A DNA stretch of 64,000 nt, taken from positions 1-64,000 of the forward strand of contig JARFRB010000087.1 in NCBI GenBank assembly GCA_029287455.1. Reading direction: 5' to 3'. This document shows, piece by piece, positions 26,176 through 48,595 of this stretch. A program made the position numbers and the translations under genes. Numbering within the stretch: the first letter of the stretch is position 1; each line of letters opens with the position of its first letter. The notes below the pieces were generated by a model. That model did no database searches, was not told the origin of the DNA, and saw nothing but the letters and a program-made list of their open reading frames with translations. This DNA comes from Pelagibius litoralis. GTDB lineage: Bacteria; Pseudomonadota; Alphaproteobacteria; Kiloniellales; DSM-21159.

Positions 26176-27366
26176 CTACTTGTAGGGGTCTGCTGCGTCG
26201 CGCAGCCCGTCGCCTAGGAAGTTGAAAGCCAAGACCACGATCACCACCGGAACGCCCGGCAGCAAGAGCCAGGGATACAGCGTAATCGCGTTGATGTTCT
26301 GCGCCTCGGTCAGCAACACGCCCCAAGACGTGACGGGCGGCCGCAGGCCGAGCCCCAAGTAAGATAGGGCGGTTTCCGCCAAAATCATGTTGGGGATCGA
26401 AAGCGTCGCCGAGGCGATGAGGTGGCTTGCGAAGCTGGGCAGCAGATGGCGGCCGATGATCCGGGCCGGCGAGGCGCCCATCAACTGGGCGGCGGTGGCG
26501 AAATCCTCCTCTCGCAGGGACAGAAGTTTCGAACGCACGGCGCGCGCCAGTCCCGGCCAGTCCAACAAGGCCAGAATAAATGTGAGCCCGAAGAAGACGC
26601 CGATTGGCGACCAGGTCACCGGCAAGATCGCCGAGAGAGTCATGAAAAGCGGGATCTCCGGGAAGGAGCGCAGGATCTCGATGCTCCGCTGGGTCAGATC
26701 GTCCACCCAGCCGCCGTAGTATCCGGCCAGGCCGCCGATCACGATGCCCAGAATAAAGCTCAAGGAAATCCCGATAAGGCCGATGGTGAGAGAAATCCGC
26801 GCGCCATAGATGATCCGGCTCAGGACATCGCGGCCCAGCCGGTCCGTGCCCATCAGGAAGAGGGTGCCGTCCTTGGCCGGGCAGAAGAGATGGAAGTTGC
26901 CTTCCCACTGCCCCCAGAAACGGTATTCGTCGCCAAGACAGAAGAAGCGGATGCGCTGCGGCTCGCTCTTGTTGGGAACGTAGTTGCGGCTCAAGGTCGT
27001 CAGATCGAGCTTGTAGTCGAAGCCGTAGACGAAGGGCCCGACGAATGCGCCCTCGTGGAAGAAGCGTAAAGCCTGCGGCGGGGCGTAGATGGAGTCCGTG
27101 TTGCGGGTGTGAAGGTTGTAGGGCGCCACGATCTCGGCGATGACCACAAGAAGATAGAAGAAGGCCAGGACCAGGCCCGAAACCACCGCGAGCTTATGGT
27201 GGCGGAACTTCCACCACATGATCGTCCACTGGCCCGCCTGGTAATAGCGCTCCTGCTCGGGGGTTAGGGTGTCCTTGGTGTAGGGATTGAAGGGATCGGG
27301 GTCGACATAGTGCCCCTCACGCGGCGGCGGCGGCAGATTCCGGCGGTCGATCGGCTTGTCGCTCAT
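26176..27366 (-). CDS. Peptide/oligopeptide ABC transporter permease (DppC/YejE type)
   Basis: 396-residue inner-membrane permease. TM1 is at about 58-80, a long loop of roughly 110 residues follows, then M-G-T-D-R-L-G-R-D-V-L-S-R (the DppC-family signature) and five further membrane segments; the EAA loop reads A-A-Q-L-M-G-A-S-P-A-R-I-I. The long N-terminal cytoplasmic stretch and enlarged first loop are reminiscent of YejE-type permeases and longer than plain DppC (about 300). The start overlaps the stop of the partner permease as ATGA. The substrate cannot be inferred because no binding protein is encoded nearby. Confidence 0.85.
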   Translation of the reverse strand: MSDKPIDRRNLPPPPREGHYVDPDPFNPYTKDTLTPEQERYYQAGQWTIMWWKFRHHKLAVVSGLVLAFFYLLVVIAEIVAPYNLHTRNTDSIYAPPQALRFFHEGAFVGPFVYGFDYKLDLTTLSRNYVPNKSEPQRIRFFCLGDEYRFWGQWEGNFHLFCPAKDGTLFLMGTDRLGRDVLSRIIYGARISLTIGLIGISLSFILGIVIGGLAGYYGGWVDDLTQRSIEILRSFPEIPLFMTLSAILPVTWSPIGVFFGLTFILALLDWPGLARAVRSKLLSLREEDFATAAQLMGASPARIIGRHLLPSFASHLIASATLSIPNMILAETALSYLGLGLRPPVTSWGVLLTEAQNINAITLYPWLLLPGVPVVIVVLAFNFLGDGLRDAADPYK

Positions 27367-28361
27367 TTCGTCGCCCCTCCGCCCAGCCGGATCCGGGGGT
27401 CAAGCGCCGCGAGCGCCAGGTCGGACAGAAACACGCCGATCACCACCAGCAGGGCCTGGAACATCAGGAAGGAGCCGGCGAGGTACATGTCCTGACTCTG
27501 CAGGGCCTTCACGAGCATGGAGCCCGTGGTTGAGAGGTCCAGCACCACCGAGACGATGGCGGCGCCGGAGATGACCTGCGGCAGCAAGGAACCGATGTCC
27601 GCGATAAAGGGATTGACCGCCAGGCGCAGGGGATACTTGGCGATCACCTTCCACTCGGCCAAGCCCTTCGCCCGGGCGGTGGTGACGTATTGCTTCTGCA
27701 GCTCGTCGAGCATGTTGGCGCGCAGGCGCCGGATCATCCCCGCCGTGCCCGAGGTGCCGATCACCACCACGGGCACCCAGAGATGCGCCAAGAGGGAGCC
27801 GACCTTCTCCCAGCTCCATGGCTGGTCGATGTATTGCGGGTCGAAGAGGCCGCCGTAGGAGGTCCCGAACCACTTGTTGCCCAGATAAAGCAGGATTAGC
27901 GCCAGCAGGAAGTTGGGCGTGGCCAGGCCTAGAAATCCGATGAAGGTGAAAATGTAGTCGCCGATGGAGTACTGCCTGACGGCCGAATAGATGCCGATGG
28001 GAAAAGCCACCAGATAGGTGAAGATCACCGTGGTGGTGGCCAGCACCACGGTTAGCCAGAGCCGGTCGCCCACCACCTCGGCGACCGGAAGCTGGTACTC
28101 GAAGGAATACCCCATCTCGCCTTGCAGAAGGTCCAAGACCCAGAAGAAATATTGCTCGACGAAGGGCCGGTCGAGGCCGTACTGCTCGCGCAGGAAGGCG
28201 ATCTTGGCCGGATCCACCGCCTCGCCCTGGGCCTGCAGCTCCGCCAGATAGGTTTCCAGATAGTCGCCTGGCGGCAACTGAATGATGAAGAAAATCAGAA
28301 AGCTGATGACCAGCAAGGTCGGGATCATAACGAAGAGCCGGCGCAGGGTGTATGCCAGCAT
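27363..28361 (-). CDS. Peptide ABC transporter permease (DppB/YejB type)
   Basis: 332-residue permease with N-terminal M-L-A-Y-T-L-R-R-L-F-V-M-I-P-T-L (TM1 about 9-30), a periplasmic region containing the family motif R-E-Q-Y-G-L-D-R-P, and five further membrane segments. The EAA motif T-T-A-R-A-K-G-L-A-E-W is near residue 236. It forms a heterodimeric channel with the following gene, with which it shares a four-base overlap. Six bases separate it from the upstream dual ATPase stop, so all three are one operon. Confidence 0.88.
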   Translation of the reverse strand: MLAYTLRRLFVMIPTLLVISFLIFFIIQLPPGDYLETYLAELQAQGEAVDPAKIAFLREQYGLDRPFVEQYFFWVLDLLQGEMGYSFEYQLPVAEVVGDRLWLTVVLATTTVIFTYLVAFPIGIYSAVRQYSIGDYIFTFIGFLGLATPNFLLALILLYLGNKWFGTSYGGLFDPQYIDQPWSWEKVGSLLAHLWVPVVVIGTSGTAGMIRRLRANMLDELQKQYVTTARAKGLAEWKVIAKYPLRLAVNPFIADIGSLLPQVISGAAIVSVVLDLSTTGSMLVKALQSQDMYLAGSFLMFQALLVVIGVFLSDLALAALDPRIRLGGGATK

Positions 28362-28367
28362 TGCCCG

Positions 28368-30272
28368 TTACTCCGCCGACTGCAGGAAGGGTTCGAGGGT
28401 AGCCGTCTCCGGATCGGCCCGCACGAAGTGGCCCGACCCAAGGTCCACCAGGCGCGGATGGGTGTCGCCGCCCAGCGTGAAGGGGGCGGGCCAGGCCTCG
28501 GGCTGGGAGGCCCTGCCGTCCATCAAGGCGGTGAGATCGAGCCGGCGCTCGGGATTGGGCTCCGGCACCGCCGAAACCAGCGCGCGTGTATAGGGGTGCA
28601 CCGGGTTCTTGAAGAGAAGCTCCTTCGGTGCCAGCTCCACCAGCCGGCCGCGGCACATCACGGCAATCCGGTCGGCGATGTAATCCACCACGGCGAGATT
28701 GTGGCTGATGAAGAGATAGGTCAGGCCCAATTCGTCGCGCAGATCCTTCAACAAGTTCAGGATCTGTGCCTGGATGGAAACGTCCAGGGCAGACACCGGC
28801 TCGTCGCAGATCAAGAGATCCGGCATCAAGGCCAGTGCCCTGGCAATGCCGATGCGCTGCCTTTGCCCGCCGGAGAAGGAGTGCGGGTAGCGCTTCAGGT
28901 GGCGCACATCCAGCCCGACCAGACGCATCAGCTCCATCACCCGCTCGGCCCGGCTTTCCGGGGTTCCGATATCGTGGATGAGCAGCGGTTCGCTCAAGAT
29001 CTCGAACACCGTCATGCGCGGGTTCAGGCTGCTGAAGGGATCCTGGAACATGAACTGGATGCGCCGCCGGAACGCGACCAGATCCGAATCCGACAAGGCC
29101 AGGACATCCAGGGGCTCGCCGTGATCGTTGAAGACCACCTCGCCGCTGTCCGGGGTAAGCGCCCGCATCACGATCTTCGACAAGGTGGTCTTACCGCAGC
29201 CGCTCTCGCCCACCAGGCCGACGCATTCCCCGCGGTGGACGCTAAGGCTGACGTCATCCACCGCCAGCACCTTGTCCGAGGGCTCGCGCGAGAACCAGGA
29301 GGATTTGCGGATCGTGAAGGTCTTGGTTATGCCGGTCAGGCGCAGTAACGGCCCCGCCGCGTCACTCCCTGGCGGCCAAGGCTTCTTCTCCTCCATGAGT
29401 TTCGTGTGGCCGTTGTGCTGAATTTCGCGCAGAGGCCTCAGGCGCTCGCCCGGTTTCATGTCGAAGCGCGGAACGGCCCCCAGCAGAGCGGTCAGATAGG
29501 GGTGGCGGGGATCGTGGAAGATGTCGTCCAGCGTGCCGCTTTCCATGACCTCGCCCCGGTACATCACCACCACCTCCTCGGCCACGTTGGCCACCACCCC
29601 CAGATCGTGGGTGATGATCAGGACCGCCATGCCCAGCTCGGCTTGCAGATCCTGAATCAGTTTCAGGATCTGCGCTTGGATGGTGACGTCGAGCGCGGTG
29701 GTCGGCTCGTCGGCGATCAGCAGGGCCGGCCGGCAAATCAGGGCCATGGCAATGACAACGCGCTGGCGCAGGCCGCCGGAGAGTTCGAAGGGATAGGTCT
29801 TGAGCCCCCGCTCCGGGTTGGGGAAGCCCACTAGGCGCAGCATGTCGGCGACGATCTTCTGGCCTTCCGCGCCGGTAATGCCGCGATGCAGAGCCAAGGC
29901 TTCGCCCACCTGATCGCCCACGGTATGCACCGGGGACAAGGACGTCATGGGCTCTTGGAAGACGATGCCGATGCTGCCGCCGCGAATGGCGCGCATCCGC
30001 TCCGACTCCGGATCGAGGGCGGCGATATCGACCTGTTCGTTGTCGCGGTCGGGATCGACGAAGAGAATCCGGCCGGACTCGATGCCAGCGGTGCGCGGCA
30101 GGATCCCCATGACCGACTGGCTGACAACCGACTTCCCCGATCCGGACTCGCCAACCAGCGCAACGGTTCCCCCCGGCGGAACGGAGAAGGAGACGCCCCG
30201 AACCGCATGCAGACGCCCTTCCGGCAAGCGGAAGGCGACGTGAAGATCCTCGACGGTCAGGAGGTCAGCCAA
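28368..30272 (-). CDS. Dual-domain ABC ATPase of a peptide-type importer (YejF-like fusion)
   Basis: 634 residues with two complete ATPase domains. Domain 1 has Walker A G-E-S-G-S-G-K-S at 41-48 and signature L-S-G-G-L-R-Q-R; domain 2 has G-E-S-G-C-G-K-T near residue 360 and signature F-S-G-G-Q-R-Q-R, each with D-E-P Walker B. Both thus look catalytically intact, equal to fused DppD-DppF. The start is TTG at 30272 with a G-rich ribosome site (GGGGGGC) just upstream; no nearby ATG retains the whole first domain. Order is ATPase-permease-permease, the reverse of many operons, and the gene that should encode the periplasmic binding protein is absent from the locus. Confidence 0.9.
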
Positions 30273-30339: not shown

Positions 30340-30897
30340 TCAAGCTCCTTCGCCCGGCACGATCGCCGGGCGCGGCGTATCCTCGTCGGCGTGAATACCC
30401 AGGCCGAGGAGGTTTCCCGCCGTCGTCGGGTCGAGCGCGACACCGTTGCGCCGGGCCGCCTTCGCGGCATGCCAGGCGATGTCCGCGAACCCCTCGATGC
30501 GTGATTCGAACGTCATTTTTCCACCGCTTCCCGTCAACGTCAGTTGCAGGAACCCCCCATCGTTACGCCGCCGTTCCCTGCGCGTGCCAAAGTACCTTAG
30601 CTTCAGCGCGGACAAATCTTCCCAGAGCAAAGCCTTCGTGGCTAGAACCTTTATGAAGAGTCCTTGCCCATTGAGGGCAACCCGCGTGAACTGCTGCCGC
30701 AGTGTGCGGAGCCCAAATATACAGAAAATCAGGACCAGGCTCCCGAAAATTCCCACAATCCACGTCGATCCGCCGCTCGACGCCAGCACGGTGAGCCCCA
30801 AGGCCAATCCCCCGGCCGTTCTCAGGTAGTCGCCGAGCAGGGAGCGGGGCGGGTAGCGATAGAACACGGTATCGGGCTGGGGCCTATCCTCGTTCAT
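30340..30897 (-). CDS. Small membrane protein of unknown function, last gene of the glycosyltransferase operon
   Basis: 185 residues. Two hydrophobic segments (about 24-42 and 46-62) sit near the N-terminus, followed by a soluble part with alternating hydrophobic residues (R-V-A-L-N-G-Q-G-L-F-I, W-E-D-L-S-A-L-K-L-R-Y) that resembles membrane-anchored PH-like domains in layout, though this is impression only. No catalytic motif. Its ATG overlaps the stop of the upstream glycosyltransferase by four bases, so it belongs to that operon. It ends 67 bp before the TTG start of the peptide ABC ATPase. I do not recognise the family. Confidence 0.6.
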   Translation of the reverse strand: MNEDRPQPDTVFYRYPPRSLLGDYLRTAGGLALGLTVLASSGGSTWIVGIFGSLVLIFCIFGLRTLRQQFTRVALNGQGLFIKVLATKALLWEDLSALKLRYFGTRRERRRNDGGFLQLTLTGSGGKMTFESRIEGFADIAWHAAKAARRNGVALDPTTAGNLLGLGIHADEDTPRPAIVPGEGA

Positions 30898-32099
30898 GAA
30901 CCGTGCCTTTCCGCCACGGGCCTGGCCGGCGGCGGGTCCTCGGTGGCCAGACGCGCAATGATCCCCGCCGAAATCCCTGCACCTCTGGTTTCTATTTGAG
31001 GTGGCGCCCGGCGTCCACGCTCTTCCGCGTTCGACAGGGCGCGTGCGAGCCTTTCCGGAGTCAAGTCTGGCTCCTCGACAATCTCCAGCAGGCCACGCGC
31101 CGCCAGCAGCCGGGCGCGATGGAGTTGTTCGCTCTCTTGCCCACCGGAAAAGGGTGCCACCACCGCCGGTGCGCCGCTGCCCAATACCTCCAGCACGGTG
31201 TTGTAGCCGCCCAGGCTGATCGAGGCGCGGCAGCGGGCCAAAAGCGCTTGGAAATCGCGCCGGGACCTTTCGACAACGGTCCTCTCGGGCGCGGCGGCGG
31301 TCAGGTCACTGAATTCGGCTTCCGGCAGATTGGGGCCAGTCAGAATGCGCCATCGCACCTCGGCGCGCCGGTCCAGCCGCCGCGCCGCCAGGGCCACTTT
31401 AAGGAAGGGGCCGCCGAAGGCACCGCCGCCCGCCGAAACGACGACTTCGCCCTCACCCGCATTCCCCTGGCGAAGATCGCCGGCACCACCCTCCGCCGGG
31501 CTCATGGGCGGGTTGGCGATATAGCCGGTATAGGTCAAGAGGCGGCCGGCACGCGCGGCTTGCGCGAAGCTGTCGCGCAGGCGAACGAAGGCCGGGTCGC
31601 CGTGCACCAGCACGAGATCGTAAAAGCGCTCGGCGGTTTCCGCCATCCACAGCGTGCGCTCCGGCGGCTTTTCCACCAAGAGGTCGCGGATGGAGGAGAC
31701 AATCCAGGGGCGGGGCTGGCGGGCACGCGCCGCCGCCAGCAGGGGTTCCAGCTCGAAGCGGAATTTCCGACGGCCGAAAGGGTACATCTCGGTCACCAGT
31801 ACCTTGGGGGCCAGCGCCGCGAGGATCTCCAGCAGGTCGGCGCGGCGCCGCTTTTTCCAGGCCGCGTCGATCGGACGCCCTTCGGCATCAAGGACCGGAT
31901 CGAAGCGGCTGTCGGCCACCCAGGCGGCGGGAAGCTGCACGAGGCGTGCCGAACCCAACTCAAGGCCGGGCACTGTCCGGCCGCCCGACACCACCACGGC
32001 CTTCAGCCCGGCCTCCGCACAAGCCTTCGCCAGCGCCGCCGTGCGGGTGAGGTGCCCGATGCCCCAGAGGTGCTGCACGTGAAAGAGGACGTCTGTCAT
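30894..32099 (-). CDS. MurG-like GT-B glycosyltransferase (second of a paralogous pair)
   Basis: 401 residues without signal peptide or membrane segments. N-terminal G-I-G-H-L-T-R-T-A-A-L-A fits the sugar-acceptor loop of GT28/MurG-like enzymes; the C-terminal half has V-V-V-S-A-G-G-G-A-F-G-G and the donor-binding G-G-Y-N-T-V-L-E-V-L. It aligns throughout with the 35205-36437 product (shared G-x-G-H-L-x-R, Y-T-G-Y, G-G-G, G-G-Y-N-T), so the two are paralogues in one operon. The family looks like the predicted glycosyltransferases of COG4671 (from memory). Donor and acceptor unknown. Four-base overlaps join it to the phosphatase upstream and the membrane protein downstream. Confidence 0.75.
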   Translation of the reverse strand: MTDVLFHVQHLWGIGHLTRTAALAKACAEAGLKAVVVSGGRTVPGLELGSARLVQLPAAWVADSRFDPVLDAEGRPIDAAWKKRRRADLLEILAALAPKVLVTEMYPFGRRKFRFELEPLLAAARARQPRPWIVSSIRDLLVEKPPERTLWMAETAERFYDLVLVHGDPAFVRLRDSFAQAARAGRLLTYTGYIANPPMSPAEGGAGDLRQGNAGEGEVVVSAGGGAFGGPFLKVALAARRLDRRAEVRWRILTGPNLPEAEFSDLTAAAPERTVVERSRRDFQALLARCRASISLGGYNTVLEVLGSGAPAVVAPFSGGQESEQLHRARLLAARGLLEIVEEPDLTPERLARALSNAEERGRRAPPQIETRGAGISAGIIARLATEDPPPARPVAERHGS

Positions 32100-32680
32100 G
32101 GCTCCAAAGGCAGGTTAAGGGCTTCGATCTCCGCAGCTCCGCCAGGATGGATCCGGAAGCGGTGGAAGCAAGCGCTCGCGAGCTTGACCGGGGGTTTCCC
32201 GCGGAGGTCCCAACCGCTCGCATGGCAGTAAAGCGCCCGGATGATGCCGCGATGTGCGACCGCTCCGGCCGGCTCTCCGCTTGCGGCGAGGCGGGCGAGG
32301 AAGGGGCGCAGGCGGTTCAGCGCCTCGCGCGGCGTCTCTCCGCCTGGCGGTCTGAAATCGAGGCCCCGGTCCTCGTTCTCGGCCATCTCGTCGCCGAGGG
32401 CTTCACGCAGCGCGCCCAAGCGGTGCCCCTCCCATTCGCCCCAGTCCATTTCGATCAGCGCCTCATCCGGCGAGGCGTTCAGGCCCAGAAGTGCCGCGGT
32501 CTCGCGCGCGCGGGCGAGGGGAGAGCTGTGCCAGCGCCAGGTGTGCAGCGCGCCGGGCAGGCTCCAGCGGGCCACCGCTCGCCGCCCCGCCGCCGATAGA
32601 GGCCTGTCCGCGCGCCCCTGCAGGCGGCGGTCTTCGTTCCAGTCCGTGGGCCCGTGGCGCAGAATGATGAAGGGGATCAT
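32096..32680 (-). CDS. Histidine phosphatase family protein (phosphoglycerate mutase-like)
   Basis: 194 residues. The R-H-G motif is at residues 8-10 (I-L-R-H-G-P-T-D-W-N-E), followed by the R in S-S-P-L-A-R-A-R-E-T-A, E in M-D-W-G-E-W-E-G and the second His in V-A-H-R-G-I-I-R. These residues complete the catalytic set of the branch that includes CobC/GpmB-like phosphatases. Sitting between two glycosyltransferases with four-base overlaps on both sides, it may remove a phosphate from a sugar or lipid-linked intermediate; that is inference. An alternative is general phosphatase activity on a small metabolite. Confidence 0.8.
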   Translation of the reverse strand: MIPFIILRHGPTDWNEDRRLQGRADRPLSAAGRRAVARWSLPGALHTWRWHSSPLARARETAALLGLNASPDEALIEMDWGEWEGHRLGALREALGDEMAENEDRGLDFRPPGGETPREALNRLRPFLARLAASGEPAGAVAHRGIIRALYCHASGWDLRGKPPVKLASACFHRFRIHPGGAAEIEALNLPLEP

Positions 32681-33807
32681 GCGCCGGGCCTCCCCCGACG
32701 GTGGTCCGCGGCCGCGCCCCTGAGAATGCAGTCGAGCCCCTCGGCCGCCGCCGCGAACCCGTGAGATTGCCGCAGGTAGCGCGCAGCACCTTGGCCCAAG
32801 GCCCGCCGCCGACCGGAGTCTTCCAGAAGCTGCGCGATGGCCGCCGATAAGGCGTCGTCGTCGCGCGGGGCGGTGAGAAGCCCGCTCACACCGTCGGCCA
32901 CCACGGCCGGAACACCGCCTTCCCGCCCCGCGACAACCGGCAGCCCGAGCGCTTGCGCCTCCAGCAAGGCCATGCCGTAGGCTTCGTTGACCGCCGGCCA
33001 GACATAAAGATCACCAGCGGAAAAGAGGCCGTGGAGCGCTTCCGGCGGCAGCGCGCCCAGGAAGCGGACGCGCCCGCTGGGAAGGGCCGCGAAAGCCTCT
33101 TCCACCGCGCTGCGCGCCGGCCCGTCGCCAGCCAGCAGCACGACCCACTCCAAGTCCGCAAGCCGGCCCAGGGCTTCGGCAAGCAAGCGATAGGAGGCGA
33201 GCTTATCGCCCGCGCGCATCATTCCGGCGGCGATGATCCATGGGGCGTTGTCGGGCAAACCGGCCGTGGCACGCCAATGCGCCCGCGCACTCGCGCGGTC
33301 GGGGGAATCCGGGATCTCCACGAAGGGCGGCAGGTCCCTGAGCTTGGCGGAGTCGGGAAGGCAGGCCGCGTTACGGGGGTTGAGCGGGATCACGGCATCG
33401 GCCTGGGCCAAGGCATCGAGCACGGCGCGGTAGCTCATGTCCCAGGGCCCGCCGGCCCGCTTCGGCGCGACGGAGGCTTCGGCCACCACGTAGGGAATGT
33501 CCAGCGTGCGCGCCACCCGAGGGCCGATCCAATCGGGAGCCTTGTAATAGAGGTGATAAGTGAACCAAAGGTCGGGGGGCGGGCTTGCCCCCGCAACGAT
33601 GCGCTCGGCAATGCGGGCTCCCAGCTTTGCGCGGCGCGCTTGCTCGGCCGCATCGCCATCGGGCACCCGCCCGCGCAGGCGGCTGGCCAGGACGACCTCG
33701 TGCCCCGACCGCTCCATCGCGCGCCACAAGAGGCGGGCCATGTTGCGGTCGCCCGAGGGCACCGGATGATCGGGCGCTTTCATTGGCGCGTAGAAAGCGA
33801 CCCGCAT
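32677..33807 (-). CDS. GT4-family glycosyltransferase
   Basis: 376-residue GT-B glycosyltransferase. The N-terminal domain starts M-R-V-A-F-Y-A-P-M-K. The C-terminal donor domain carries G-D-G-P-A-R and the E-x7-E motif in N-E-A-Y-G-M-A-L-L-E-A, followed by G-L-P-V-V-A-G-R-E-G-G-V, typical of retaining GT4 enzymes using NDP-sugars. No membrane segments; peripheral membrane attachment is common in the family. ATG 33807 lies only six bases after the preceding glycosyltransferase stop, and its own stop overlaps the phosphatase gene. Confidence 0.83.
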   Translation of the reverse strand: MRVAFYAPMKAPDHPVPSGDRNMARLLWRAMERSGHEVVLASRLRGRVPDGDAAEQARRAKLGARIAERIVAGASPPPDLWFTYHLYYKAPDWIGPRVARTLDIPYVVAEASVAPKRAGGPWDMSYRAVLDALAQADAVIPLNPRNAACLPDSAKLRDLPPFVEIPDSPDRASARAHWRATAGLPDNAPWIIAAGMMRAGDKLASYRLLAEALGRLADLEWVVLLAGDGPARSAVEEAFAALPSGRVRFLGALPPEALHGLFSAGDLYVWPAVNEAYGMALLEAQALGLPVVAGREGGVPAVVADGVSGLLTAPRDDDALSAAIAQLLEDSGRRRALGQGAARYLRQSHGFAAAAEGLDCILRGAAADHRRGRPGA

Positions 33808-33813
33808 CGACAG

Positions 33814-35148
33814 CTATCCCGCGACCGCCCGGCCACTTGACGGCCGAACACTTGACGCCCCGCTCTCTTCAGTGTCGCCCTCTTCAACTCGGTCGGAGAG
33901 CGGCACAGCGGGGCGGAGCCCGTCGCGGTTCAAGCCGAAGCAGCCGAAGACGACCCCCATTCCGGCCTGCATGGAGAAATCCGCGCGCACCCGGGCGTTG
34001 CCCGCCGCACCCAAGCGTTGGCGCAGCGCGGGGTCCTTGATCAGGCGCGTCAGGCCCTTGGCGAGTTCGGCGGGTGCGGACGGTGGCGCCATGCATCCCG
34101 TCTCCCCCTCGATCAGCAGTTCGGGGATCGCCGAAACCCGGGTGGAGAGGCAGGCCAGCCCTTGGCTTTGGGCCTCCATCAATACGTTGGGAAGACCGTC
34201 CCGGTCGCCGTCGCCGGCAACCAAGCTGGCCAGCACGAAAAGGTCGCCGTCGCGGTAGGCCTGCAAGACCCTGTCATGTGGCTGCGCGCCAAGCCAGTCG
34301 ATCCGGTCCGCCAAGCCCAGCTCCCCGGCCAGGTGCTTTAGCTTGCGCGACAGGGCGCCGCCGCCGACGTGGGTGAAGCGCCAGGCGGTGTCTTCCGGCA
34401 AGAGGGCGAGCGCGCGCAGCAGGTCTTCGTAACCCTTCTTTGGCACCGCCCGGCCGACCGAGAGGATCCGGACCGGATCCCGCGCGTCCGATCCGTCGCG
34501 CGAAGGACGCGCGGGCGGCGCGGGAAAACGCTCGAAATCCAAGCCGTGATAAGCCAGGCGCACTTTTTCCGGATCCGCGCTCAAATCGCGGAGATGCTCA
34601 TAGCCCAGCTTCGTGCAGGTCACCAGCCAGTCGAGCTCGGCGAGCTTCTCCCGCTTCTCCCAGTCCGGCGTGGTCCAGATATCGCGGGCGTGGGCGGAAA
34701 CGCTCCAAGGCAGCCCTGTCATCAGGGCGGTGTAGCGGGCCACCGAGGCCGGCGTGTGCAGGAAATGCGCATAGAGGCGATCGACGTCCCGGGGAATTTC
34801 CGCGGCCAGGACACAGGCCTGGCCAAAGCGGCGGATCCGATTGGGTGTCAGGTCGCGGCGCAGGTCGGCCAGGAAAGCTTTCAGCGCCCTCTGGTATCCG
34901 GACAAGCCGCGTGCCCGGCGCCAGCCCGCGAAAACGCGCGCGGGTTCGCGCCACAGATATTCGGGCAGATAGGCCACGGGGGCCTGGATCTCCCGATGCA
35001 CCGGGTGCACCGCGCGGTCGGTTGGGTGGCGCAGGCTGACAAGCCGCAGATCCAGCCCCGCGCGCTCAAGCGCCAGGAGCTCCTGGGCGATGAAGGTTTC
35101 GGAAAGGCGAGGGTAGCCCTTCAAGAGGACGGCGACGGTCTGCGGCAT
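33814..35148 (-). CDS. GT4-family glycosyltransferase (WcaL-like exopolysaccharide type)
   Basis: 444 residues. The N-terminus V-A-V-L-L-K-G-Y-P-R-L-S-E-T-F-I matches the start of WcaL/AmsK-like polysaccharide glycosyltransferases; S-V-S-A-H-A-R-D-I-W is the acceptor-side motif. The donor site includes V-G-R-A-V-P-K-K-G-Y and E-x7-E-like G-L-P-N-V-L-M-E-A-Q-S-Q-G. The ATG at 35148 is used because homologue-like sequence starts there; an open extension to 35268 overlaps the neighbouring gene. The last 50 residues are extra, serine- and acid-rich and probably disordered. It is 56 bp after the first glycosyltransferase of the operon. Confidence 0.83.
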   Translation of the reverse strand: MPQTVAVLLKGYPRLSETFIAQELLALERAGLDLRLVSLRHPTDRAVHPVHREIQAPVAYLPEYLWREPARVFAGWRRARGLSGYQRALKAFLADLRRDLTPNRIRRFGQACVLAAEIPRDVDRLYAHFLHTPASVARYTALMTGLPWSVSAHARDIWTTPDWEKREKLAELDWLVTCTKLGYEHLRDLSADPEKVRLAYHGLDFERFPAPPARPSRDGSDARDPVRILSVGRAVPKKGYEDLLRALALLPEDTAWRFTHVGGGALSRKLKHLAGELGLADRIDWLGAQPHDRVLQAYRDGDLFVLASLVAGDGDRDGLPNVLMEAQSQGLACLSTRVSAIPELLIEGETGCMAPPSAPAELAKGLTRLIKDPALRQRLGAAGNARVRADFSMQAGMGVVFGCFGLNRDGLRPAVPLSDRVEEGDTEESGASSVRPSSGRAVAG

Positions 35149-35204
35149 GGTGGCATCGACTATAACAGGGCTAGGGCATTTTGCGCGGGGTACCCGGGCA
35201 AGGG

Positions 35205-36437
35205 CTACCAACGGCGCGCTTTGGCTTCGGTCAGGGGTAGCGCGCGCCGGCCGCGTTGGGCCAGCCACTGGCCAGTCAGCTTGACCATGTTCTCCCGGCC
35301 ATCCAAAAGGCCCGGCACCACGCTTTCCGACGGGCGGGGTTGCTGGCGAATGGTCTTGAGCGCCGTCGCCATGGCACGGGCATCGCGCTGCCCATCGTCG
35401 GGCAGCATGCGCAAGAGCCCAAGCTCCTGGGCGCGCGTCGCGCGGATAGCCTGTTCAAGGCGCGGCACGGTTCTGGGCACCATGATGCAGCGCTTATCGA
35501 AGGACAGGACTTCGCAGAAGGTGTTGTATCCGCCCATGCAAACCACACCCAAGGCGCGGGCCATCAGGCTTTCCACATGGGCGTTGAACGTGATCGCCTC
35601 GACTCGATCCAAGAGGTTCACCCGGCGCTGGAAGTCGGACTGCAGTTCGCTACCCATGAAGGGGCCGAGGACGATCAGCGCCGGATAGGGAATGGAAGGA
35701 TCCTCCTCATAGGCGCGCAGGACCCAATCGACGATGGCCTCGCCGTCGCCGCCGCCACCAACGGTCACCAAGATGAAGGGATCGCTGATCTTGTCGAAGT
35801 CAAGGTGCTGGGGATGGGGCGCGGAGAGGCGCCGCAAATAGCCGGTGTAGGTCAGGCGCTGGCGCACGGAAGCGGGCAGCTCGATCCCCTCCAAGGGTTC
35901 GCAGATCTGCGGCAAGCCGTAGATCCAAATATCGTCGTAGAGGCGCGGGATGGCGGGCAGGACATGCTTGCGTTCCCACTCGCTGGCCAGCATGTCGGGA
36001 TCGTCCATCACGTCACGCAGCCCGAGCACGCAAGGCGTGCCCCGCGCGCGCAACAGTTCCAGGGTTGCCTTGACCTCGCCGCGCAGGCCCAGGGGCTCCT
36101 TATCGACGATGAAGAGATCGGGATCGAAAATGTCGGCCGTGTGTTGAATGATCGACTCCCGCATGGCCAGCGTCTTTTCGATATCGATCGGCAGCTTCAG
36201 GGAGACGTAGTCGCCATCGCGCAGCTTGATCACGCCGGGGATGCGCACGAAGTCCACGCGGGCGTGAAAGTCGAAGCTTCCGATGATAGGCGAGCCCGAA
36301 AGAATCAAGACCGAGAGATCCGGGTCGGATTCCACCAAGGCGTGGGCGATCTCCCGGCAGCGCCTGAGATGGCCCAGGCCGAAGCTGTCATGGCTGTAGA
36401 TGAGGATCCGCGCCCCCAGCGGGTTTCCGTCCATCAT
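35205..36437 (-). CDS. MurG-like GT-B glycosyltransferase (first gene of the operon)
   Basis: 410 residues. G-L-G-H-L-R-R-C-R-E-I-A-H-A-L near the N-terminus and C-M-G-G-Y-N-T-F-C-E-V-L in the donor domain define a GT28-like enzyme paralogous to the 30894-32099 product. L-V-T-V-G-G-G-G-D-G starts the second Rossmann domain. Tandem ATGs at 36437 and 36434 follow AAGGGA at a good distance; a GTG at 36452 gives a less likely longer form. The gene is divergent from the ABC-exporter-like gene, with a 259-bp shared upstream region, suggesting joint control. Substrate unknown; polysaccharide or glycolipid assembly is inferred from the company it keeps. Confidence 0.77.
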   Translation of the reverse strand: MMDGNPLGARILIYSHDSFGLGHLRRCREIAHALVESDPDLSVLILSGSPIIGSFDFHARVDFVRIPGVIKLRDGDYVSLKLPIDIEKTLAMRESIIQHTADIFDPDLFIVDKEPLGLRGEVKATLELLRARGTPCVLGLRDVMDDPDMLASEWERKHVLPAIPRLYDDIWIYGLPQICEPLEGIELPASVRQRLTYTGYLRRLSAPHPQHLDFDKISDPFILVTVGGGGDGEAIVDWVLRAYEEDPSIPYPALIVLGPFMGSELQSDFQRRVNLLDRVEAITFNAHVESLMARALGVVCMGGYNTFCEVLSFDKRCIMVPRTVPRLEQAIRATRAQELGLLRMLPDDGQRDARAMATALKTIRQQPRPSESVVPGLLDGRENMVKLTGQWLAQRGRRALPLTEAKARRW

Positions 36438-36696
36438 CGTCGGTCCCTTCACTTCCCAGCGGGTCGCGCCAGCCCAGCATGCCCCCTTTCGCGCCGCCCG
36501 GACTATGCCACAGCTCGCCGTCGATGCGAAGTCTCGGATGGCTGGCCGCGCGGAAGCTTGCCCGTTTTCGCTTGGTCGTTATCTTGCGCGAGGTTAAGGT
36601 TCGCCACGTGGTGGCAATCGCATGCTCAATCCAGAGGCTCGCGGATCCGATCGCGAACCCTTGAAGGCCGCCGGAAAGTAGGACCGCGGCACGGGA
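36438..36696. promoter_or_regulatory. Shared promoter region between the glycosyltransferase operon and the ABC/cNMP genes
   Basis: 259 bp between two divergent starts. It contains a dyad GCCAC-GTG-GTGGC at 36603-36615 including the palindrome CACGTG. No -10/-35 pair good enough to name was found on either strand. This is the place to look for a common regulator of both transcription units. Confidence 0.4.
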
Positions 36697-39411
36697 ATGG
36701 AACCGAACCTTCTCAGGTACATTTGGCGGAACAGCAGAGCCGAGCAGATCCGGATTCTGTTCCTCGTCATCGTGTCGCTGCCTTTCTATTACATCTCCTT
36801 GAATCTGCCCAAGGACATCGTGAACCGCGGCATCCAGGGCCGCGGTTTCGACGGCCCGATGGACACCGAGACTTTCGGCGCGATCCCGGTTCCCTTCTCC
36901 GAGCGGATCTTTGGGGAATCGCGCATGCTTTTCGAGGGGTTTTCCCTGGAGCAGTGGCAGCTGCTGATGGCGCTCAGTTTGACCTTCCTTGGGCTGGTCT
37001 GCGTCAACGGGCTTTTCAAGCTGGTCGTGAACACCGCCAAAGGGCGTTTGGGCGAGCGCATGTTGCGGCGCCTGCGCTACGAGCTCGCCGATCATCTCCT
37101 GCGCTTCCGGCAATCGCAATTGAAGCGCATGAAAAGCGCCGAGGTGGCCACCATGGTGAAGGACGAGGTGGAGCCGCTGGGCGGGTTCATCGGCGACGCC
37201 TTCGTCACGCCGGTCTTTCTGGGCGGACAGGCGATGACGGCGATGGCCTTTATTCTGGTCCAGTCCCTACCGCTCGGCCTGGTCGCGCTGGCCATTCTCG
37301 TCGTCCAGGCCGTCCTGATCCCGAAGCTTCGGGTCAAGCTCTTGCTGCTTGGCAAGGAGCGGCAGTTGACCGCGCGCCAGCTCGCCGGCCGGATCAGCGA
37401 GATGATGGACGGCAGCGTCGAGGTCCACACCAACGACACGTCTAATTTCGAGCGCGCGGAGCTGACTTCGCGCCTGGGCAAGATCTTTGAAATCCGCTTC
37501 GAGATCTACAAGCGCAAGTTCGCCATCAAGTTCCTGAATAACTTCCTCTCTCAGGTCACGCCCTTCGTGTTCTACGCCGGCGGTGGCTTGCTCGCGATCT
37601 ACGGCTACATGGATATCGGCGCCCTTGTTGCGGTGATCGCCGCCTACAAGGATTTGCCGGGCCCGGTGCGCGACTTGATCAATTGGGAACAACAGCGCCA
37701 GGACGTGCGCATCAAATACGAACAGGTGATCGAGCAGTTTCAGTCGACCGATATCATGGAGCCCGCGCTTCAGGACCCCGATGTTCCGGTGGCGCCTCTG
37801 GAGGGCAACATATCGGCGAACTCTCTGGTCTACACGGACGAGAACGGCGACCGCCTGGTCGATGGTGTGAGCTTCGAGTTTCCGCTGGACAGTCATGTGG
37901 CTTTGGTGGGCGACGCCAGCAGCGGCAAGGATCAAGTGGCGCTGATGCTGGTCGGCCTGGTCGCGCCCACCGCCGGCCACCTGGCGATCGGTGGAAAGGA
38001 TCTTACCCGCCTGCCCGAATCGGCCCTTGGGCGCCGCATGGGCTACGCCGGCCCGGATGCCTATCTGTTTCCCCAGTCGGTGCGTGAGAACCTTGTCTAC
38101 GGTTTGCGCCACCGCCCGATCGATGAGCCCGTTTATCCGGAGTCCGAAGCGGCCGTTCACAAGTGGCGCGCGGACGAAGCCGCCCGGTCCGGGAACTGCC
38201 TTCTTGATGTCAACGCCGAATGGGTCGACCGCATATCGGCCGGCGCGCAGGATGAAGAGAGCCTCGACCGTTCACTTATCCAAGCCGTGTCGGTTGTCGA
38301 CATGGAAGAGGATATCTACCGCTTCGGTCTCAATGGCTCCATCGACCCCGAGCAGCGGCCTGGCGTGGCGCAGGATCTGTTGCGGGCGCGCGTGGCCCTG
38401 ACCGAGCGCTTGCGCGAGGTGGGGGCGGATTCCTTCGTCGTTCGCTTCGACGCCGACAAATACAATCCCAATGCGACCATGGCCGAGAACTTGCTGTTCG
38501 GAACGCCCAAGTCCGCGGACTTCGACGTAGATGCCATGGCCGACAACCCCATCGTCCTGCGTGCGCTTGATGAGGCGGAGTTGATGGATGATCTGGTGCA
38601 GAAGGGCTTCACCATCGCGCAAACGATGGTCGAGCTGTTTGCCGACCTGCCGCCCGGCCATCCCTTCTTCGAACAGTTCAGCTTCATCGACGCCGATGAC
38701 CTACCGGAGTTTCGCCAGTTGATCCAGCGGGCCGAGGCGCGCGGTGTCGCGGGGCTGGGCGACGACGATCGCCGCCGCTTGCTGCGGCTGCCCTTCCGCT
38801 ATATCGAGGCACGCCACCGCCTAGACTTGATCGACGAAACCTTGGAGCGCGAAGTGGTGACCGCGCGCAAGCTGATCGCGGCCGCGGTGGAGCGCGAGTG
38901 CCCGGACGCCGTCGAGTTCTTTGATCCGGCGTCCTACAACGCCGCCGCGTCGATGATGGACAATATTCTTTTTGGCCGCTTGGTGTTCGGGCAAGCCGAG
39001 GCGCAGGAGACAGTGGGCCGGGCCGTCACCGAAGTGCTGCGCGAGATGGATCTCAGAGAGGCGGTCTGCCGGGTCGGCCTTGACTTCCAAGTGGGCGTCG
39101 GCGGCAAGCGCTTGAACGCGACCCAACGCCAGAAGCTGGCCATCGCGCGCGCCCTGATCAAGCGGCCCGACGTGCTTGTCATCAACGAGGCCACGGCGGT
39201 GATGGACGGCGCGACCCGCGCGCGCTTGATTCACACGGTGCTAGGGTACCGGGAGGGTGCGGGCGTGGTGTGGGTGCTTGAGCGCGCGGCCATGGCCGAC
39301 CGCTTCGATGACGTGATCGTGCTGCGTCAGGGCCGTTTGATGGAGCGCGGTAAGTACGACGATCTCGCGCGCGATGGGACCACGTTGCCGCAGCTGGTTG
39401 ATGCGGATTGA
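36697..39411 (+). CDS. Atypical ABC-exporter-like protein with degenerate, expanded nucleotide-binding domain
   Basis: 904 residues. Residues 1-330 look like an ABC exporter membrane domain (segments about 18-36, 88-110, 165-207, 283-318). The ATPase domain (about 370-890) is unusual. Walker A is G-D-A-S-S-G-K-D (405-412), with Asp for Ser/Thr; the Q-loop Gln is absent (Y-A-G-P-D-A-Y-L-F); the signature is L-N-A-T-Q-R-Q (806-812); Walker B ends I-N-E-A, with Asn830 for Asp; the H-loop His is Glu862 (V-L-E-R). About 290 extra residues separate Q-loop and signature, and the E-N-L-x-x-G element occurs three times (around 465, 598 and 756). ATP hydrolysis is doubtful. It is followed after 49 bp by a cNMP-binding protein and is divergent from the glycosyltransferase operon. 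Exported substrate unknown. Confidence 0.75.
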   Translation: MEPNLLRYIWRNSRAEQIRILFLVIVSLPFYYISLNLPKDIVNRGIQGRGFDGPMDTETFGAIPVPFSERIFGESRMLFEGFSLEQWQLLMALSLTFLGLVCVNGLFKLVVNTAKGRLGERMLRRLRYELADHLLRFRQSQLKRMKSAEVATMVKDEVEPLGGFIGDAFVTPVFLGGQAMTAMAFILVQSLPLGLVALAILVVQAVLIPKLRVKLLLLGKERQLTARQLAGRISEMMDGSVEVHTNDTSNFERAELTSRLGKIFEIRFEIYKRKFAIKFLNNFLSQVTPFVFYAGGGLLAIYGYMDIGALVAVIAAYKDLPGPVRDLINWEQQRQDVRIKYEQVIEQFQSTDIMEPALQDPDVPVAPLEGNISANSLVYTDENGDRLVDGVSFEFPLDSHVALVGDASSGKDQVALMLVGLVAPTAGHLAIGGKDLTRLPESALGRRMGYAGPDAYLFPQSVRENLVYGLRHRPIDEPVYPESEAAVHKWRADEAARSGNCLLDVNAEWVDRISAGAQDEESLDRSLIQAVSVVDMEEDIYRFGLNGSIDPEQRPGVAQDLLRARVALTERLREVGADSFVVRFDADKYNPNATMAENLLFGTPKSADFDVDAMADNPIVLRALDEAELMDDLVQKGFTIAQTMVELFADLPPGHPFFEQFSFIDADDLPEFRQLIQRAEARGVAGLGDDDRRRLLRLPFRYIEARHRLDLIDETLEREVVTARKLIAAAVERECPDAVEFFDPASYNAAASMMDNILFGRLVFGQAEAQETVGRAVTEVLREMDLREAVCRVGLDFQVGVGGKRLNATQRQKLAIARALIKRPDVLVINEATAVMDGATRARLIHTVLGYREGAGVVWVLERAAMADRFDDVIVLRQGRLMERGKYDDLARDGTTLPQLVDAD

Positions 39412-39460: not shown

Positions 39461-39901
39461 ATGGGACTGGAACAAGAAGTTGCTATTCTAAAAAAGATTC
39501 CGCTCTTCGCGCGGATCGACCCCACGAAGCTGAAGCTCATGGCCTTCGCCAGCGAGCGGATGATCTTCAAGCCTGGCCAAGCCGTTTGCAGGCAAGGCGA
39601 CGTCGGAGACTCCGCTTTCATCATTATCGACGGCGAGGCCGACATCCTGATTGAGAGCGATGGCGGCCCCATCAAGGTCGCGAGCGTGGGGCGCAACGAT
39701 ATTATCGGCGAGATCGCCATTCTTTTGGATGTGCCCCGTACGGCGACGGTGCAGGCGACCTCCGACCTTCAGACCCTGAAAATCACCAAGGATCTTTTCT
39801 TCCGGATGGTCACCGACTTTCCGGAGATGGGTGTTGAGATCATGCGGGTCCTGGCGCATCGCCTGGACGCCACCAACGCTCAGCTTCGCGCCGCGCGTTA
39901 G
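39461..39901 (+). CDS. Stand-alone cyclic-nucleotide-binding domain protein
   Basis: 146 residues formed almost entirely by one cNMP-binding domain. The phosphate-binding cassette reads I-I-G-E-I-A-I-L-L-D-V-P-R-T-A-T-V, with the Glu and Arg that contact cyclic nucleotide ribose and phosphate, so ligand binding is plausible. There is no helix-turn-helix, unlike CRP/FNR regulators, and no membrane segment. ATG 39461 follows GGGAG at seven bases; the frame open to 39374 overlaps the ABC gene. Coming 49 bp after the ABC-like gene on the same strand, it probably acts on that protein. Binding of cAMP versus cGMP cannot be told. Confidence 0.85.
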   Translation: MGLEQEVAILKKIPLFARIDPTKLKLMAFASERMIFKPGQAVCRQGDVGDSAFIIIDGEADILIESDGGPIKVASVGRNDIIGEIAILLDVPRTATVQATSDLQTLKITKDLFFRMVTDFPEMGVEIMRVLAHRLDATNAQLRAAR

Positions 39902-39933: not shown

Positions 39934-40725
39934 CTACGCCAGATCCACGATCACCGGGACGTGGTCGGATGGCTGTTCCCAAGCGCGGGTTTCGCGAAAA
40001 ATCTCCAAGCCCTGGACGCCCTCCATCAACGCGGCGCTCGCGAAGGCGTGGTCCAGGCGCCAGCCGTAGTCTTTGTCGAAGGCCTGCGCGAAGCGGTAGC
40101 CCCACCAGGTGTAAAGCGGCTGGTCCGCGGGCACGAAATGACGGCCGACGTCCGTAAGCCCGCCCGCCCGAAGCACGTCGCTCAGCAGCCCCGATTCCAG
40201 CGGTGTGTGCCCAACGCTGCGCAGTAGGCGCTTGTGGTTCCACACGTCGTTCTCGAGCGGCGCGACATTGAGGTCGCCAACCAAGAGCAGCTTGCGCCCG
40301 CGCGCCTCGACCGACGACCAGGACGCCATCTCCTTTAGGAACGCGATCTTGTGAGCGAACTTGTCGTTGACCTCGGGGTCGGGCTTGGGCCCGCCGGAGG
40401 GAACGTAGAAGTTATGCAGGCGCAGTCCGCCGGGCAGTTCGACGGAGGCGTGGCGCTTGTCGTCGCGCGCGCACCAGCGCAAGCGCTGCCGGTCCGCGAA
40501 GGGTACGCGCGAGATGATGGCGACGCCGTTATATCCCTTCTGACCTGCGACGACGTGGTGCGGGTAACCAAGGGCGGAGAGATCTTCGGCGGGAAAAATC
40601 TCCTCTGCCATCTTGATCTCCTGAAGACAGATCACGTCTGGCGCGCGCTCCTCGATCAGTCGTGCCAGGTGGTCCATTCGCTGGCGCAGGGAGTTAACGT
40701 TCCAGCTTGCGATCCGCAGCTTCAA
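39934..40725 (-). CDS. xth: Exodeoxyribonuclease III
   Basis: 263-residue AP endonuclease/3'-5' exonuclease of base excision repair. R-I-A-S-W-N-V-N-S-L-R-Q-R at the N-terminus, L-Q-E-I-K-M (catalytic Glu), L-V-G-D-L-N-V-A-P (Asp/Asn pair), W-R-L-D-H-A-F and the final S-D-H-V-P-V are complete. I used a TTG at 40725 (L-K-L-R-I-A-S-W-N), which gives the normal N-terminus; a GTG at 40797 would add 24 unlikely residues. It is convergent with the cNMP-binding gene, 32 bp away, and divergent from rpsT. Confidence 0.9.
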   Translation of the reverse strand: MKLRIASWNVNSLRQRMDHLARLIEERAPDVICLQEIKMAEEIFPAEDLSALGYPHHVVAGQKGYNGVAIISRVPFADRQRLRWCARDDKRHASVELPGGLRLHNFYVPSGGPKPDPEVNDKFAHKIAFLKEMASWSSVEARGRKLLLVGDLNVAPLENDVWNHKRLLRSVGHTPLESGLLSDVLRAGGLTDVGRHFVPADQPLYTWWGYRFAQAFDKDYGWRLDHAFASAALMEGVQGLEIFRETRAWEQPSDHVPVIVDLA

Positions 40726-40897
40726 GATACGCGCGTCCTTTCCACGATGTCGGCTTTGGGCCTTGGAATGCCCAGTTTTCCAGGTGCCCTTTGCCACGGG
40801 GCAGGGCGAGGCGAGGGGAAGATAATCGACGCAAAGGCCGATGAGAAGCCGCTTGGCGCGATCGCAACGATTTCAGCGCGTGCCGGTGCCGCTATCC

Positions 40898-40926
40898 TTG
40901 ACGCGCAGTCAAGCGGTCGTTATAAC
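40898..40926 (+). promoter_or_regulatory. Sigma-70-type promoter of rpsT
   Basis: TTGACG at 40898-40903 and TATAAC at 40921-40926 with exactly 17 bp between, about 41 bp before the rpsT start. It is one of the best housekeeping promoter matches in the window and suits a ribosomal protein gene. Confidence 0.75.
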
Positions 40927-40967
40927 CGCGCGCCTTCGAATTTTGCGAAAGAGATACAAGGTCCGTC

Positions 40968-41231
40968 ATGGCCAACCACAAGTCAGCCGAAAAGCGCATT
41001 CGCCGCAACCAGCGCCGGAGTGAAGTGAACGGGGCGCGCGTCAGCCGTATCCGCACCTACATCAAGAGCGTCGAGACGGCGATCGCCTCCGGGGACAAGA
41101 CGGCCGCCGACGCGGCCCTGAAAGCCGCCCAGCCGGAGATCCATCGTGGCGTCAGCAAGGGCGTGATGCACAAGAATACGGCCGCGCGGAAGCTTTCGCG
41201 CTTCTCCTCGCGGATCAAGCAGCTAGGCTAG
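40968..41231 (+). CDS. rpsT: 30S ribosomal protein S20
   Basis: 87-residue basic, helical protein that binds 16S rRNA early in 30S assembly. The N-terminus [14 protein letters not shown] and C-terminal [10 protein letters not shown] are diagnostic. AAGG lies before the ATG. Single gene with its own promoter; rpsT upstream of dnaA is common in alphaproteobacteria. A GC hairpin follows the stop. Confidence 0.97.
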
Positions 41232-41239
41232 TCGCCCGC

Positions 41240-41262
41240 CCGCACGCGCTCACGGCGTGCGG
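41240..41262 (+). terminator. Hairpin after rpsT
   Basis: Perfect 8-bp stem CCGCACGC/GCGTGCGG with a 7-nt loop, starting nine bases after the rpsT stop. It lacks a T tract, so it may end transcription with Rho or stabilise the mRNA end. Confidence 0.45.
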
Positions 41263-42006
41263 AAGATGGCAGTCGATCGCGCTGGGCCCTGAACGCCCAC
41301 TGTCCCGAAATCCCGCTGCCTCGAATCACCACGGAACCGAAGTTCCGGCGGCCGGAAATCCTTTGGCTCCTAAGCGGTCTGTAACCGCTGAAAATCGGCG
41401 TCAGCCCTGCGGCCGCGCGCCCTCCTCGGCTTGCGCAAACCGCCCTGCCGCCCGCCAACGGCGGCCCCGCCGCACCGCGTAAAAAAATATTTCGGCTCGG
41501 TGTGAGGATGGATTCTCCCTCTGATTTAAGGCCTTGTCGATTTGTCCTCATGTTTCAAGCCAGTGCTCCCAGGCCGTTCACCATACAGGCCTATTGCCTG
41601 CCAAACGGCCGAAGGTTACACTTTGGGTCTTGATACGTGGTTGCCATATCACAATAATTTACAAATAAAAAATCTACAAAATGTGGAACGGTAAATAGAA
41701 TTACAAAGGTTTGAGGGTGAGGGGGGCGAATACTTTCTTGAGCGCGGGCGCCAATCCGCTTCTCACTTGAAGATCGCGCTCGCTCGGGCTGGTTATAAGG
41801 GGAAGTCCGGGGCGAAACGAGCGTTTCTAGTGAGTGAGAGAGAAGATAGAAGGATCGGCGGCGCGGGAAAAGCTTGCTTGTTCGAGGGAGGACTTGAGCC
41901 GGGTTCCGGCTTGGCGGCTTGGACTTGGGTCTAGGTTCTCCCAGGGGGGGCGGTTCAAGAGTTCTCCGCGGTGGAAATCGGGGTTGGTGGAGGTCAGGGG
42001 AAGAGC
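41263..42006. other. Gene-free region upstream of dnaA with AT-rich island (41641-41710)
   Basis: About 740 bp without a convincing gene. Bases 41641-41710 have 18 G/C out of 70 (26 percent), in strong contrast to the GC-rich surroundings; a shorter A/T run lies at 41483-41494. Just upstream is a nested hairpin (41572-41610): outer GGCCGTT/AACGGCC and inner CAGGC-CTATT-GCCTG. A hairpin AGCGGT/ACCGCT lies at 41373-41389. I looked for DnaA boxes (TTATCCACA) and paired TTAA CtrA sites and found no good match, so it may be the dnaA promoter region or an unwinding element, but origin status is unproven. An open frame at 41834-42145 has no family features. Confidence 0.45.
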
Positions 42007-43503: not shown

Positions 43504-43523
43504 TCCTCCTAGGGTAAAATCCC

Positions 43524-43551
43524 TTACGATTCAGTGCCATTGTGCTATAGT
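43524..43551 (+). promoter_or_regulatory. Candidate promoter of dnaN
   Basis: TTACGA at 43524-43529 and TATAGT at 43546-43551 with 16 bp between, inside the 194-bp dnaA-dnaN gap. The -10 is strong and the -35 fair. A GATTC (GANTC, CcrM-type methylation site) overlaps the spacer at 43528-43532, which could link expression to replication if CcrM is present. Confidence 0.5.
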
Positions 43552-43697
43552 CTCCGTCCGTTTCGCGGCCCCTGGATTCGCTGAAGTGGCGCCGCGTGCC
43601 GGAACTGTCGTGGAGGCCGCGTGATCGTGAAGTGACGGAGGCGCGGATTTCCGTAAATTCAACGGGTTAAAGGCCCCTCAGGCATTTCAGAGAACTC

Positions 43698-44816: not shown

Positions 44817-44868
44817 CGGCGATTCGCGGGGCGCCATGGAATGCGGCCGCTCCGCGATTTGAGGAGCG

Positions 44869-48595
<3,727 letters not shown>

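Follow-up and report, generated by a model that had tools for sequence, protein, structure and literature searches.

A widespread alphaproteobacterial ABC-exporter-like protein with a degenerate ATPase domain, a triplicated ENLFG element and a cyclic-nucleotide-binding partner

Transporters of the ATP-binding cassette (ABC) type are defined by ATP hydrolysis, and the locus described here raises the question of what an exporter of this type may do when its ATP site is degenerate. The locus lies in a stretch of 64,000 nucleotides of Pelagibius litoralis (assembly GCA_029287455.1, contig JARFRB010000087.1, positions 1 to 64,000; hereafter the window). Its forward strand encodes at 36697..39411 an ABC-exporter-like pseudo-ATPase of 904 amino acids, recognised from its open reading frame (ORF), Pfam and full-length homologues. 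Comparison of sequences establishes an exporter membrane domain, a degenerate ABC fold, a conserved triplicated insert, partnership with a cyclic-nucleotide-binding protein and linkage to glycosyltransferases. With a probability of about 0.5, the protein may be a pseudo-ATPase that transports an envelope glycan, or acts as its gate, under gating by a cyclic nucleotide.

The layout is that of the ABC exporter superfamily (type IV/ABCB fold), a single chain that combines a membrane domain with a C-terminal domain of the ABC_tran fold. Pfam assigned ABC_membrane to residues 90-314 and split ABC_tran into two stretches, both models scoring above the cut-off; no C39 peptidase domain was found in the protein by Pfam. 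Among the larger parts of the family protein, the transmembrane domain as a whole (residues 86-345; 36952..37731, forward strand) is the most strongly conserved, with a mean column entropy of 1.35 bits. No NCBIfam model reached its cut-off for the window protein, the best being MsbA (TIGR02203) with 168.8 bits against a curated cut-off of 602. Annotators have named the family members plainly as ABC transporters.

The ATP site of the window protein departs from the canonical one at each motif. All of the residues quoted in the first-pass annotation of this DNA are present. The Walker A-like motif GDASSGKD (residues 405-412; 37909..37932) retains Lys411 and carries Asp412 for Ser/Thr; Pro453 occupies the position of the Q-loop Gln; the signature is reduced to LNATQRQ (residues 806-812; 39112..39132); the Walker B-like motif VLVINE (residues 826-831; 39172..39189) has Asn830 for Asp while keeping Glu831; and Glu862 replaces the H-loop His (39280..39282; all on the forward strand). 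By comparison, 11 ordinary exporters taken as controls from the same genome and its relatives all carry GK[ST], LSGG[QE] and DEAT.

These losses are not a peculiarity of one protein. Among 138 non-redundant family members, Ser or Thr occurs at position 412 in 9 and Asp or Glu in 113; the Walker A Lys position holds Lys in 86 and Arg in 34; the second Gly of the signature is present in 11; Walker B has Asp in 18 and Asn in 82. The catalytic Glu is kept in 73 members and the H-loop His in 37. The losses in Walker A, the signature, Walker B and the H-loop thus apply to most of the family. The missing Q-loop Gln holds for the window protein and some other members but does not extend family-wide, Gln being found in 33 members and Pro in 49. 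The window protein thus lacks functional Walker A and Walker B motifs, an LSGGQ signature, and a working Q-loop and H-loop. A check for homologues with canonical motifs did not restore the site: Lys, Ser/Thr, Asp and Glu stand together in only 2 of the 138, and some members (L037, L038) lack even the Walker A Lys. In variability, the catalytic positions rank between the 45th and 90th percentiles, and the halves of the nucleotide-binding domain (NBD) have 1.85-2.07 bits of entropy versus 1.35 for the membrane domain. To judge by sequence, ATPase activity appears to have been lost in the family.

A different reading of the same positions is that of a working exporter with an unusual site, in which the acidic residue at 412 would replace the Walker B Asp as the magnesium ligand; ATP would be hydrolysed, perhaps slowly, and the cyclic nucleotide would only tune the process. 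The prevalence of Asp/Glu412 and Asn830 might reflect such an exchange of acidic residues, and Asp830 is commoner where Ser/Thr412 is kept (4/9 vs 8/113; Fisher p 0.005, without phylogeny correction), which is suggestive of compensation between Walker A and Walker B. Lys or Arg at 411 in 120 of the 138 members, the retained Glu831 and the two members with all four residues point the same way. However, the Gly-Gly of the signature, the Q-loop Gln and the H-loop His are lost as well, all of these positions vary, L037 and L038 dispense with the Walker A Lys, and the locus of one genome (G378, below) persists without any NBD. A hydrolysing exporter of this kind is regarded as rather unlikely.

The variable ATP site encloses a conserved insertion. 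From Walker A to the signature there are 401 residues in the window protein versus 105-107 in the 11 ordinary exporters, which leaves approximately 295 residues extra and agrees with the earlier estimate of about 290. The pattern that had been noticed at residues 584-602 and 742-760, with an offset of 158, is present at both places, as is the third, shorter match at 461-469. Element 1 (residues 448-469; 38038..38103), with Pro453 for Gln, stands at the normal Q-loop position and includes the shorter match S461-VRENLVYG469. Element 2 (residues 580-602; 38434..38502; FVVRFDADKYNPNATMAENLLFG) reads F584-D..YNPNATMAENLLFG602, and element 3 (residues 738-760; 38908..38976; AVEFFDPASYNAAASMMDNILFG), normally spaced from the signature, reads F742-D..YNAAASMMDNILFG760. 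A helical insertion (residues 481-735; 38137..38901) lies between elements 1 and 3 and includes a conserved segment unique to the family (residues 637-673; 38605..38715; IAQTMVELFADLPPGHPFFEQFSFIDADDLPEFR). All of these features are on the forward strand.

The relationship of the three elements was evaluated by profile-profile comparison (HHalign on a 61-row family alignment). Copies 2 and 3 matched with 98.9% probability, an E-value of 3e-17 and a score of 80, copies 1 and 2 with 95.6% and a score of 45, and copies 1 and 3 with 92.9% and a score of 39. Column-shuffled profiles scored at most 17.4 and other segments of the protein at most 11.3, which excludes a chance repeat. The matching segments begin near residues 443, 577 and 735, and the repeat unit of about 60 residues consists of a strand, YN..ENLFG and then a helix; between copies 2 and 3 the helix in front also aligns, which brings the match to 83 residues (99.1%). 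Walker A runs on into copy 1 without a break, and about 50 residues, an ordinary distance, separate copy 3 from the signature, as would be expected from tandem duplication of an internal Q-loop/helical segment. No significant remnants of LSGGQ or Walker B were detected after elements 1 and 2 by profile comparison.

Conservation within the insertion is of another order than at the ATP site. The repeat anchors N598, N756 and G760 are invariant (138/138), and N590 (134/138), H707 (132/138) and H655 (125/138) are nearly so. Elements 2 and 3 and the segment 637-670 have entropies of 1.3-1.5 bits, about that of the membrane domain. Conserved anchors in the insert together with variable catalytic positions indicate that selection guards the insert and not the ATP site. 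On these alignments the helical insertion is ancient and was made by two rounds of duplication of a Q-loop/ENLFG/helix unit. The earlier proposal of a module created by repeated duplication on a degenerate ABC domain is thus supported, except that the module was not newly built here: the insert occurs throughout a class-wide family.

In a first sample, all 58 genomes had ABC matches, and full-length homologues with 52-65% identity were present in the majority of families within the order. A sample drawn from the whole class gave strong matches in 132 of 385 genomes, one of them (G378) to the membrane domain only. Relatives include Tistlia (Tistlia consotensis), Rhizobium, Sinorhizobium, Phyllobacterium, Azospirillum and Ruegeria. 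By its distribution in these samples, this is an ancient family across Alphaproteobacteria and not a local oddity. A sequencing or frameshift artefact is rejected, as the open frame and the insert recur in relatives across the class. No members were found in viral contigs, and none were seen outside the class in a phylum sample or in plasmids, the sampled share outside the class being too uncertain to show absence.

Residues 360-904 were modelled with AlphaFold using ordinary exporter NBD fragments, as split halves, for additional alignment rows. The mean predicted local distance difference test (pLDDT) was 75.8, with most of the NBD core above 90. The insert was all-helical with pLDDT of 33-90, lowest around element 3; its arrangement in the model is not reliable, and the fold of the core owes something to the NBD rows that had been added. 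Within these limits, the whole-model search with VIA-align listed only the NBD, as a single domain, with TM287 matched at Z 28.9 and a root-mean-square deviation of 1.9 Å over 245 residues. The NBD model superposes on TM287, MsbA, TAP1 and others, TM287/288 being among the best structural matches. A second intact ATPase domain inside the insertion, which would have undone the first-pass interpretation, is rejected, since the model contains one NBD fold with a helical insertion and the repeats lack Walker motifs.

Directly downstream of the ABC gene, the window encodes a cyclic-nucleotide-binding protein of 146 amino acids (39461..39901, forward strand; Pfam cNMP_binding, 67 bits) with an intact phosphate-binding cassette, GEIAILLDVPRTATV. 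Of 60 loci, 50 have a homologue directly after the ABC gene, and in 6 more it forms a C-terminal fusion with the ABC protein (56/60 in total), the fusions being confirmed by Pfam. The cassette Arg is present in all of the partners compared (55/55) and the Glu in nearly all (50/55), so ligand binding is to be expected. Adjacency or fusion to such a domain points to regulation by a cyclic nucleotide, and the small protein is proposed as the regulatory partner of the ABC protein; the alternatives of a regulatory or structural module, left side by side at first, can be narrowed to the regulatory one. In Rhizobium and Sinorhizobium, the array of genes also includes one for a nucleotide cyclase.

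Four glycosyltransferases and a histidine phosphatase are encoded divergently upstream of the ABC gene, in an order conserved in most loci. In the window, they occupy the reverse strand as follows, from the ABC gene outwards: a GT28-C type glycosyltransferase divergent to it (35205..36452), two of the GT4 type (33814..35268 and 32677..33807), the phosphatase (His_Phos_1; 32096..32680) and a second glycosyltransferase of the GT28-C type (30894..32099). Among the 385 genomes, the nearest glycosyltransferase and the ABC gene were both present in 125, the ABC gene alone in 7, the glycosyltransferase alone in 2 and neither in 251 (Fisher p 8e-90, not tree-corrected). The co-occurrence includes genomes in which the two genes are 17 kb to 3 Mb apart.

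Genome G378 (1.6 Mb, 91% complete) offers a natural experiment. Its locus L165, on contig 44, has at 2194-3231 an ORF of 345 amino acids that corresponds to the membrane domain alone and is divergent from a cluster of four glycosyltransferases 39-51% identical to those of the window; the genes after this ORF are unrelated. No full-length version of the family protein, with NBD or insert, was found in the G378 genome, and the cyclic-nucleotide-binding partner was not found there by a query that matched in three control genomes. This single case fits the view that the membrane domain can serve the pathway without the ATPase domain and that the head and the sensor were lost as a unit.

Other membrane domains of the ABC-exporter type without an ATPase domain were also encountered. 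Paralogous ORFs of about 400 amino acids occur at L160:6588-7959, L161:6336-7707, L162:6328-7510, L163:6042-7317 and L164:5867-7091, among unrelated neighbours such as a Na+/H+ antiporter, a multicopper oxidase and a major facilitator superfamily protein. Two distant ABC-exporter-like ORFs (L166:5689-6886 and L167:5913-6927), about 26% identical to the window protein and likewise restricted to the membrane domain, possibly represent a further family.

Another explanation for a degenerate motor is that the protein is a membrane-bound scaffold or receptor, which would organise the glycosyltransferases and switch glycan synthesis in response to the cyclic nucleotide while another protein moves the product. 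The tight linkage with glycosyltransferases of a cytosolic type, the sensor partner and the survival of the membrane domain alone in G378 are compatible with this. Yet conservation among the large parts of the protein is highest in the membrane domain, and most loci have no other exporter linked to the cluster; a non-transporting scaffold is doubtful. Least probable is a degenerate half of a heterodimeric exporter whose competent half is encoded at a distant place in the genome. One half of exporters such as TM287/288, BmrCD and TAP typically has degenerate sites, and TM287/288 is among the best structural matches, but the halves of known heterodimers are usually adjacent genes, a full exporter-type ORF lay near the family gene only in L038 among 61 loci, and with Walker A, Walker B and the signature all degenerate no more than a hybrid site would be left to a hetero-pair.

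Decay of the motor, glycan linkage and a sensor together suggest that the export step of the gated transporter is signal-controlled rather than ATP-driven. In such a mechanism, two protomers would dimerise via their pseudo-ATPase domains, and the extra ENLFG-helix units are predicted to form a docking surface for the cyclic-nucleotide sensor and would also act on the membrane domain through its coupling helices. Once cAMP or cGMP is bound, the assembly could shift and so open or close a path for a glycan that is either lipid-linked or nascent. A structural role for bound ATP may persist, because the Walker A Lys position is Lys or Arg in most members, with turnover expected to be slow or absent. 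A bolder and more tentative version holds that the family has given up ATP hydrolysis throughout the class and that the ATPase domain, enlarged by triplication of its own Q-loop/helical unit, became a cyclic-nucleotide-controlled regulatory head, so that the whole would be a glycan translocator gated by a second messenger; in lineages that do without the signalling, head and sensor would be lost together, leaving the bare membrane domain as in G378.

Several points weigh against a gated pseudo-ATPase transporter. The catalytic Glu (73/138) and the Walker A Lys (86/138) are kept often enough that some turnover is possible. The co-occurrence statistic for glycosyltransferase and ABC gene carries no phylogeny correction, and the insert in the structural model, with its pLDDT of 33-90, rests on two sequences. 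Furthermore, the match to polysaccharide genes of Sinorhizobium meliloti, considered below, was drawn from gene order and annotation wording and not from locus tags.

The remaining neighbours are recorded as observations in their own right. At the far end of the glycosyltransferase cluster (30340-30897) lies a conserved 185-aa protein without a Pfam match, which keeps this place in many relatives. Beyond it, on the reverse strand, an oligopeptide-type ABC importer comprises two permeases and a double ATPase (26176..30272); it is Yej-like, relatives of its ATPase gene stand beside the cluster in rhizobia and other loci, and the Rhizobium/Sinorhizobium array also has an importer of the oligopeptide type. 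Its position beside a glycan cluster might imply a functional link to the yejABEF genetics of Agrobacterium tumefaciens (PMC9790009). The locus is just upstream of dnaA, dnaN and recF (39934-46113; recognised by eye from the ORF list) and hence close to a likely replication origin. Further away (21537-22958), a 473-aa ORF appears to join an HPr kinase-like fragment to a RapZ-like part, again recognised by eye; proteins of these two types are usually encoded by separate neighbouring genes.

Several known systems share parts of this arrangement. The homodimeric exporters of the MsbA/ABCB type have the same succession of membrane and ATPase domains, and MsbA is the best named model; the window family differs in falling far below the MsbA cut-off, in its degenerate motifs and insertion of about 295 residues, and in having a cyclic-nucleotide-binding partner and linked glycosyltransferases. 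TM287/288, BmrCD and TAP likewise maintain degenerate catalytic residues in a stable family. Unlike them, the window family has no adjacent competent partner, is degenerate in both the Walker and the signature halves, and carries the insertion.

HetC of Nostoc, a peptidase-containing ABC exporter, has an N-terminal domain of the cyclic-nucleotide-binding type that binds ppGpp and is needed for function, as is its catalytic ATPase residue (PMC10986499). The window family resembles it in joining such a domain to an ABC exporter. It differs in that the domain is C-terminal or separate, the ATPase is degenerate, with the catalytic Glu intact in only 73 of the 138 members, and there is no N-terminal C39 peptidase. 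The ABC exporter fold, degenerate sites and cyclic-nucleotide-binding domains on exporters are thus already known (for the last, HetC, PMC10986499); the combination of motor loss, triplication and a C-terminal or separate sensor in a glycan locus was not found in the literature searched.

Regarding the glycan itself, Travin et al. (PMC10128002) report that S. meliloti uses nine genes in the interval smb21252-smb21271 to produce the phazolicin-protecting polysaccharide (PPP), an uncharacterised polymer of the cell surface that acts as a barrier to phazolicin. Individual mutants have been published for smb21252 and smb21265, the latter described as a 'glycosyltransferase family protein', and the adenylate cyclase gene cyaA was recovered in the same phazolicin screen (PMC10128002). 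In S. meliloti 1021, the orthologue of the window ABC protein lies on pSymB at 841723-844435, adjoining orthologues of three window glycosyltransferases and of the cyclic-nucleotide-binding protein; the orthologous genes lie together in the arrays of both S. meliloti and R. etli. The RefSeq name of the R. etli glycosyltransferase orthologue is also 'glycosyltransferase family protein', the wording used for smb21265. Judging by gene order and naming, the window system is probably the PPP system of Sinorhizobium; the pseudo-ATPase and its repeats are not described for the PPP cluster in the part of PMC10128002 that was available. In A. tumefaciens, the uncharacterised glycan cluster Atu2577-Atu2592, with a putative ABC exporter (Atu2577), glycosyltransferases and a UDP-sugar dehydrogenase, is linked genetically to yejABEF and to phenazine tolerance (PMC9790009). 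It may be the same system, which is offered as a lead only.

An uncharacterised alphaproteobacterial envelope glycan (PPP, possibly also that of Atu2577-2592) would in this way gain a specific candidate for its transporter as well as a second-messenger input that can be tested, in a pathway with links to legume symbiosis and to the tolerance of antimicrobial peptides and phenazines. If the gated-transporter interpretation is correct, the family would show how a motor domain takes on a regulatory role, much as in the eukaryotic proteins CFTR and SUR.

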